Of a DNA stretch of 64,000 nucleotides, positions 45,348 through 45,604 are shown one piece after another. Position 1 is the first letter of the stretch, and each line of letters opens with the position of its first letter. This DNA is from Erythrobacter sp. QSSC1-22B. GTDB taxonomy: Bacteria; Pseudomonadota; Alphaproteobacteria; Sphingomonadales; Sphingomonadaceae. The stretch is taken from contig NZ_LZRP01000008.1 of assembly GCF_001678665.1 (NCBI RefSeq), positions 1 through 64,000 on the forward strand, given 5' to 3'. The notes under the pieces are model-generated. The model made no database searches. It was given only the letters and a program-made list of their open reading frames with translations, and was not told the DNA's origin. The position numbers and the translations under genes are program-made.

Positions 45348-45380
45348 GAGGGCCGGCACACCAAAGCGGTTGAAGGACGC

Positions 45381-45405
45381 GCTGCGCAAGACTAGATTGC
45401 GCAGC
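45381..45405 (+). terminator. Perfect 9-bp hairpin between phoD and the leader ORF
   Basis: GCTGCGCAA (45381-45389) and TTGCGCAGC (45397-45405) with a seven-base loop. No T run follows, and the ATG of the threonine leader starts on the next base. It could end phoD transcription, or, by folding, bring the GAAGGA at 45372-45377 to within three bases of the leader start. The role is undecided. Confidence 0.5.
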
Positions 45406-45477
45406 ATGCCGCAATTGCGCTCCACGACCAGCACTACCACCACTCCGGGCTTCCGGGGGCGGGTGCGCGCGGTCTGA
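45406..45477 (+). CDS. Threonine-rich leader peptide upstream of thrS
   Basis: A 23-residue ORF, MPQLRSTTSTTTTPGFRGR and four more residues, with six threonine codons among the seven codons at 45424-45444 (ACG, ACC, AGC, ACT, ACC, ACC, ACT). It ends 127 bp before thrS on the same strand. Leader peptides rich in the product amino acid, such as E. coli thrL, couple ribosome stalling to attenuation. An in-frame TTG at 45370 or 45397 is an alternative start; the only good SD (GAAGGA) is upstream of the hairpin. Expression is unproven. Confidence 0.55.
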   Translation: MPQLRSTTSTTTTPGFRGRVRAV

Positions 45478-45508
45478 TCCGCAGCCCTGCCGCCCGGTGT
45501 CGGGTGGC
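45457..45508 (+). promoter_or_regulatory. Competing hairpins, candidate thrS attenuator
   Basis: GCCGCCCG (45489-45496) and CGGGTGGC (45501-45508) pair over eight positions with one G-U and a GTGT loop. CCGCCC within the first arm can instead pair perfectly with GGGCGG at 45457-45462, inside the end of the leader ORF. The two structures exclude each other, which is the layout of an attenuator or a translation switch. No T run follows the second arm, so classical termination is uncertain. Confidence 0.4.
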
Positions 45509-45604
45509 GCGGCGTTCCATCCGGTATTTCCTTCGCGAACAACGCCGCACTTCAAGCGCGCCCGTGGTTGTGCCATTGGCGTCGCAAAGGATACGGATGA
45601 ACCG

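Follow-up and report, generated by a model that had tools for sequence, protein, structure and literature searches.

In E. coli, autoregulation of thrS, the gene encoding threonyl-tRNA synthetase (ThrRS), by binding of the enzyme to its own messenger is a textbook case. A different arrangement is found in the window analysed here, a 64,000 nucleotide stretch from Erythrobacter sp. QSSC1-22B, where thrS is preceded by a short ORF rich in Thr codons and by tracts able to form alternative hairpins. The locus raises the question whether thrS expression is set by a ribosome reading Thr codons, and by which route such a signal may reach the gene. The gap upstream of thrS is 257 nt long, and is flanked on the other side by a gene for a PhoD-like phosphatase, with stop codon at 45345-45347. 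The main features of the locus are the following:

45370..45398, + strand, promoter-like motif with TTGAAG and TAGATT spaced by 17 nt; 7 nt separate it from the leader ATG, a conserved position
45406..45477, + strand, leader ORF of 23 codons encoding MPQLRSTTSTTTTPGFRGRVRAV and closed by a stop codon; read from the sequence, found in relatives
45424..45444, + strand, Thr codon run, 6 Thr in 7 codons; read from the sequence, with codon conservation in 90 leaders
45605..47632, + strand, thrS, threonyl-tRNA synthetase (Pfam TGS, tRNA_SAD, tRNA-synt_2b, HGTP_anticodon)

The earlier note had placed at 45406-45477 an ORF with six Thr codons in seven, followed by thrS, and had described a hairpin at 45489-45508 that excludes a pairing with 45457-45462 inside the leader. 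Coordinates and complementarity are exact in all cases. The Thr codons start at 45424, 45427, 45433, 45436, 45439 and 45442, the two pairings are mutually exclusive, and thrS, which starts at ATG 45605, 127 nt past the end of the leader ORF, encodes the TGS, SAD, class II core and anticodon-binding domains of the synthetase. No Rfam family, T-box or other, matches 45340-45700 at E values up to 1. The sole Rfam match of the whole window at the gathering score is a tRNA gene at 25182-25263. With 6 Thr among 8 codons in a short ORF, the window has a score that is matched in none of 2000 dinucleotide shuffles of its own 450 nt upstream region, the best of which reached 5 Thr in 8 codons, once. The 235 nt leader has a folding z of -2.9, and equally good folds were found in 2 of 200 shuffles.

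Sought in 199 genomes of the family, thrS was matched in 198; 90 upstream regions were taken, and 88 were usable. Short ORFs with at least 4 Thr in 8 codons are found in 54 of the 88, and in 0/88 reverse complements and 18/440 shuffles taken as controls. At a threshold of at least 5 Thr in 8 codons the figures are 49/88, 0/88 and 1/440, respectively. A second collection included 80 named loci, 70 of them new, and the Thr ORF is present in 43 of these 70. L040 (G047), L172 (G282) and L043 (contig end) were left out. Upstream of thrS orthologues, where the earlier note had suggested to look, the Thr run is overall kept in 97 of 158 family loci. It is missing within 450 nt in the other 61, 6 of which carry the element further upstream. 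Named loci hosting the element span Erythrobacter, Qipengyuania, Croceicoccus, Novosphingobium and others.

After dropping six rows (L010, L058, L068, L225, L233, L239), 91 leaders were compared. They are 19-27 residues long (median 23) and include 4-12 Thr (median 7), encoded by 366 ACC, 131 ACT, 127 ACG and 35 ACA codons (659 in total). The comparison of synonymous codons that had also been suggested gave a clear pattern: in the last seven codons up to the last Thr (90 leaders), positions 1 and 2 are nearly fixed (A at 0.76-1.0 and C at 0.80-1.0, respectively), and position 3 is free, the commonest base reaching only 0.38-0.83. Conservation at positions 1 and 2 is partly circular, because the ORFs were picked for Thr, but the freedom at position 3 is not, and therefore points to selection for Thr codons, not for letters.

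The promoter-like motif has 8 of the 12 consensus bases. A simple consensus scan of 44900-46100, for which the limit was 9, gave no promoter-like and no terminator-like site, and the call rests on conservation instead. In leaders with a single ATG, the TA of the -10 is located 12-14 nt before that ATG in 54/56 cases (control bands 0-8/56), and the TGA of the -35 is located 34-35 nt before it in 43/56. This TA-position test was a post hoc choice, and replaced a TANNNT scan judged too strict (expected band 11/91, control bands 0-5). The fixed distance of the TA suggests, therefore, that the transcript probably starts at the AUG of the leader ORF, which would be leaderless. A Shine-Dalgarno (SD) sequence precedes the leader ATG in 3/91 leaders, a scarcity that is little informative because, by the same scan, thrS itself is preceded by an SD-like sequence in only 2/91. 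A leaderless leader ORF, in a transcript beginning at the AUG, is described in the available text on S. meliloti trpL/rnTrpL (PMC10117765), likewise alphaproteobacterial, which differs for the Trp leader and the trp biosynthesis target.

Downstream of the Thr run several segments may pair in alternative ways:

45443..45448, + strand, segment 1, pairs with 45453-45458 (1:2; z -4.2 in 51 sequences, -3.1 in 40 held-out sequences)
45453..45462, + strand, segment 2, common to 1:2 and 2:3 (2:3 z -5.7 and -5.9)
45489..45496, + strand, segment 3, partner of segment 2 or segment 4 (cognate tests, sequence)
45501..45508, + strand, segment 4, 3' arm of hairpin 3:4 (z -1.7 in 51, -3.2 in 40 held-out sequences)
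45497..45504, + strand, 5' strand of 4:5, overlapping loop and 3' arm of 3:4 (top covarying column pair in A1)
45520..45527, + strand, segment 5, 3' strand of 4:5 (cognate tests, covariation)
45510..45516, + strand, 5' strand of 4b:6 (z -5.3 and -6.4; 5/7 pairs changed on both sides)
45541..45547, + strand, segment 6, 3' strand of 4b:6 (cognate tests, covariation)
45550..45585, + strand, hairpin P7, made up of CTT, stem, loop UNUGCCA and stem; it closely precedes the thrS start region

Hairpin 3:4 (45489-45508) has 8 bp, including one G-U, and a 4 nt loop. In 2:3, GGGCGG at 45457-45462 is perfectly complementary to CCGCCC at 45490-45495. The two exclude each other because both use 45490-45495, and the duplex energies of the wider segments are nearly alike (-22.2 for 2:3, -21.0 for 3:4). 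By the comparisons given below, these two pairings of the earlier note belong to a larger conserved set, which includes 1:2, 2:3, 3:4, 4:5 and 4b:6.

In the cognate test, own partners were compared to exchanged ones for 91 segment pairs in 51 sequences. The top five were 4:5 (z -11.1), 2:3 (-5.7), 4b:6 (-5.3), 1:2 (-4.2) and the P7 stem (-3.5). Hairpin 3:4 had z -1.7, with values as low in 247 of 5000 permutations, and its core (s3:s4core) was outside the 22 best of the 91 pairs. Since segment borders were chosen after viewing the alignment A1, 40 held-out sequences serve as replication on unused data. In these none of the six hypothesised pairings has a z above -2.8 (4:5 -7.4, 4b:6 -6.4, 2:3 -5.9, 3:4 -3.2, 1:2 -3.1, P7 -2.8); the pair s0:s2b, not hypothesised, reached -3.0. 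A structure-free covariation scan of A1 (51 sequences) ranked first the column pair 119-151 and seventh the pair 120-150, both belonging to 4:5; other high-ranking column pairs are mostly outside any helix. In the alignment A2 (46 sequences, L018, L031, L052, L076 and L089 being dropped), covariation scores are 0.187 for the replete state (0.125 shuffled) and 0.217 for the starved state (0.134 shuffled), and neither is reached in 500 shuffles, although the sequences are related and relatedness is controlled in part. Pairs changed on both sides are five in 4b:6, four in 4:5, three in 1:2, two in 3:4 and zero in 2:3 (A2, 46 sequences), and the double-change count of the starved state is equalled by 22/500 shuffles. 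Covarying pairs had been indicated in the earlier note as a further check, and the pairings hold, both for scores above all the shuffles and for cognate preference in the held-out set. RNAalifold run on A2 gave a different, weak consensus (-9.5 kcal/mol, double changes in 2/18 pairs), an outcome expected if two structures compete, which yet counts against a single dominant fold.

Pairings 4:5 and 4b:6 interleave as in H-type pseudoknots, and 3:4 overlaps 4:5. Formation of a pseudoknot is thus possible by layout. In the window 4/8 pairs of 4:5 are G-U, and folding predicts no 4:5; because of the many G-U pairs, any pseudoknot of this species may be a weak one.

The segments suggest a switch, in which stalling and sign of control, as the transcript start and the output, are what we infer from the anatomy of the leader. 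The leaderless mRNA would start about at the AUG of the approximately 23-codon ORF, and a ribosome on this ORF would meet the Thr codon run immediately upstream of segment 1. With Thr-tRNA(Thr) in short supply, it would wait on the run and cover segment 1; 2:3 would then pair and 3:4 be blocked, leaving segment 4 free for segment 5, and 4:5 together with 4b:6 could give the possible pseudoknot. If charging is good, a ribosome at the stop codon would cover segment 2, and 3:4 and 4b:6 would form and lower thrS expression; low charging would hence raise the enzyme.

Leaders (46) were folded under a ribosome mask that extends 11 nt beyond the point where the A-site codon begins. When the A site holds any of the last three Thr codons, 2:3 has on average 10.0-12.2 predicted pairs and 3:4 1.1-2.4; when it holds the stop codon, means are 0 for 2:3, 6.6 for 3:4 and 5.7 for 4b:6 (n=46). 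In the exact alignment registers the probability of 3:4 moves from 0.11-0.25 (Thr codons) to 0.76 (stop). For 2:3, with a ribosome on Thr codons, the mean exact-register probability reaches only 0.04-0.13, so its pairs are spread over several registers. Unmasked leaders at equilibrium already favour 2:3 (n=46), and co-transcriptional folding must therefore matter if untranslated RNA is off. Exclusive 1:2, 2:3 and 3:4 pairings set by the position of the ribosome, as expected of an attenuator, are thus predicted, 3:4 (in the first set) and 2:3 (summed over registers) being the less well supported. That a Thr-codon sensor lies upstream of thrS is highly probable, its sensitivity to charging being deduced from the anatomy. 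It is likely that the element is an attenuator of thrS in which a ribosome senses Thr-tRNA, with transcription as the probable level of control.

Elements displaced from thrS are relevant to the output step. In six distinct loci (L008, L048, L049, L051, L185 and L193; L219 repeats L049) the element is ahead of an inserted gene, and thrS is behind it. The distance from element to thrS was measured in two of them (569 and 581 nt). The inserted gene encodes a 168-residue-type protein. The one protein searched resembles in its first half Rv2179c-type 3'-5' exoribonucleases (PDB 6s0m, 4oke, E ~1e-5), and has no Pfam match at 0.001. In these loci segment 6 falls near the point where the inserted gene begins. 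A control passing over a gene would fit an output at the transcription level, which is somewhat more likely than not. Its form, we think, is most likely an unusual or Rho-assisted termination around 3:4/4b:6.

No U-tract (at least 5 T in 8 nt) follows the 3:4 core in any of the 91 leaders, and one follows a longer stem in 3/91; such a tract is found somewhere between 3:4 and thrS in 23/91. Over 20 kb of the window, U-tract terminators show no enrichment (6 observed vs 11.2 in shuffles). Both the missing U-tract after the core and the lack of enrichment are in favour of Rho-dependent attenuation, in which the C-rich Thr run would be a Rho loading site hidden by a stalled ribosome, with hairpins tuning the access and no intrinsic terminator. 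The three-base periodicity with free third position, however, suits Thr codons better than a C-rich motif, as does the number of ACG codons (127 of 659), and this reading of the run is possible but doubtful. A sensor made of Thr codons and an output through Rho are compatible. The switch could alternatively mask or free the thrS start region. Control of translation by leader peptides is known for other genes, and such an output would also agree with the position of segment 6 near the inserted-gene start and with the weak cognate preference of s5:s8 (z -2.6) and s5:s9 (z -2.4) in 51 sequences. But predicted unpairing of the thrS start hardly varies between ribosomes on Thr codons (0.470) and at the stop (0.463; n=91, p 0.21). 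This unchanged accessibility and the gene found between element and thrS in the six displaced loci argue against pure masking, and make translational attenuation rather improbable.

Hairpin P7 lies within the range covered by the earlier note, where it is unnamed. The P7 block ends 11-132 nt (median 18) before the thrS start. ThrRS might repress its own mRNA by binding P7, as occurs for E. coli thrS, the leader ORF being secondary. In favour of this are the stem, whose strands fit their own partners better than exchanged ones (z -6.0 over 108 distinct blocks, -2.3 in 21 leader-absent ones), the loop, in which one U and one A are invariant in 108/108 blocks and UGU, a tRNA-Thr anticodon, occurs at the same place in 79/108, the middle base being variable, and the persistence of P7 in 22/61 leader-absent loci (13/34 in the first set, 9/27 in the second). 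Yet G35 of tRNA-Thr is an identity base, and the base that would match it is C or A in 22/108 blocks; z -2.9 was also obtained for one control pair of segments that overlaps the stem; and Thr ORF, promoter-like motif and upstream pairings are left unexplained. Repression through P7 as the main control is hence quite improbable, and binding of ThrRS to P7 is a guess. A Thr-rich peptide could also stall the ribosome by its own sequence, independently of charging. Pro often follows the Thr run (39/90), in favour of such a nascent-chain arrest, but the residues around the run vary, and the RGR conserved after it is the coding image of segment 2, so that arrest is very improbable. Hairpins are easily formed in GC-rich DNA; nonetheless, a chance ORF with chance hairpins is refuted by conservation, since shuffle controls, cognate pairing, covariation, the position of the promoter-like motif and the model matches described below all speak against it, and its probability is negligible. 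Two sensors might even coexist in one thrS leader: a leaderless ORF that reads charging and toggles between a hairpin and an H-type pseudoknot, by which transcription would be controlled without U-tract, and P7 for self-repression by ThrRS. The element would then combine attenuation by codon reading with an antiterminator of pseudoknot type, and represent a new class of RNA, a conceivable but unlikely case.

P7 before thrS was not found in the displaced loci (L008, L048, L049, identical to L219, L051, L185, L193). Leader-absent relatives that keep P7 include L015, L024 and L066. A role of P7 as promoter was considered and judged less likely, given the cognate preference of the stem and the occurrence of the strict P7 pattern only twice in the own genome.

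As a probable attenuator reading Thr codons, the element can be compared to known systems. It is not the first leader peptide proposed for thrS, as thrL has been proposed before S. lividans thrS (PMC8079986). According to the available text, the two share a Thr-containing ORF, a leaderless transcript and a hairpin without U-rich tract. However, thrL is a single case from an actinobacterium, two of its 18 residues are Thr, and one hairpin is described there without alternative pairings; here 91 leaders feature 4-12 Thr and a conserved alternative set. The closest architecture, in the portion of PMC1262725 available, is that of the LEU element found before leuA in Actinobacteria, with a cognate-codon leader ORF, a pseudoknot and an alternative hairpin. 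Pseudoknot-type pairings (4:5/4b:6) and an alternative hairpin (3:4) after the codon run are found here too, the pseudoknot being deduced from covariation. The LEU element differs because it has Leu codons, precedes an amino-acid synthesis gene, and includes a base stem in which the codon run pairs with the leuA SD (PMC1262725). Pairing of the codon run with the thrS SD is unsupported here: s1:s8 has z of only -2.1, and s0:s8 is outside the 22 best of the 91 pairs. The thrS element would therefore be a member of neither class, as it lacks both the U-tract of classical attenuators and the codon-run:SD pairing of the LEU element.

Leader peptides are known or proposed before other synthetase genes, namely pheST, trpS and leuS (PMC1262725). 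For leuS a poly-U terminator is described, trpL2 before S. lividans trpS is without U-rich stretch (PMC8079986), and a leader CDS precedes trpS in Caulobacter (PMC4117421). These also have a synthetase gene behind a leader ORF, and mostly alternative hairpins, but for other amino acids. Alphaproteobacterial thrS is absent from the synthetase leaders described in the available parts of PMC1262725, PMC8079986 and PMC4117421. Within the open-licence literature no thrS leader in Sphingomonadales was found, and the available parts of PMC2965389, PMC7566282 and PMC1273637 hold nothing on thrS leaders. E. coli ThrRS blocks the 30S subunit by binding its own mRNA (PMC11088916). Control is likewise in the thrS own leader, and P7 could resemble the anticodon-like hairpin there, but the available text on that operator describes enzyme binding and no leader ORF, whereas a Thr-codon ORF is present here. 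In this alphaproteobacterial group the demand on thrS seems to be sensed, instead, by the reading of Thr codons. Spread over many genera, without Rfam match and without U-tract, and with covarying alternative pairings and a possible pseudoknot, the element offers a clean case in which to test attenuation that lacks the textbook terminator.

A covariance model of the element had one match in each of 141/396 genomes of the order, among 8 candidates scored per genome under strict filters, and all matches are in the family of the window. For 41 matches thrS coordinates were at hand; the distance from match to downstream thrS is 33-110 nt in 39 of them, and 569 and 581 nt in the other two. Against 88 loci of other families the model gave no strong match (best 16.9 bits, E 0.03). 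When presence or absence of the leader is mapped on a tree of 79 ThrRS, 14 changes are needed, overstated because displaced elements were labelled absent, vs 23.7 in shuffles (0/500).

Rough residue-count scans of other genes of these bacteria, weak as evidence of absence, let no leader ORF stand out for Trp before trpE (19 loci, L259-L277), for branched-chain residues before ilvB (17 loci, L278-L294) or for Thr before hom (20 loci, L308-L327). Before thrS, at least 4 Thr in 8 codons were found in 4/59 loci drawn over the class, L164 (221 bases) included, and at least 5 in 1/27 loci of the family of G258. In the survey of other families L359 and L403 are misplaced (contig ends). Eleven genomes of the family of G271 were sampled, in which nine loci were examined and eight were usable (L337 was left out). 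A Thr leader precedes thrS in 7 of these 8 loci, six of them with GGAGGGTTTTTTG, and a U-tract terminator follows the leader in 6/8. In L331-L336 a hairpin with T6 tract comes after a Thr leader such as MTARTTTTATTTRTSCGGP. This arrangement looks like a textbook thrS attenuator, and by analogy lends support to the attenuator reading of the element of the window. Thr leaders before thrS in another alphaproteobacterial family may reflect repeated evolution. In the family of G272 a related-looking leader with at least 4 Thr in 8 codons is found in 13/30 loci. The leader ORF is conserved in this family (L379-L408), and often ends with TTVRT or similar. In many of these loci a GGCCGGG...CCCGGCC hairpin follows the ORF, and has CGU or UGU and then GCC in a loop (strict pattern in 13/30) that recalls the loop of P7.
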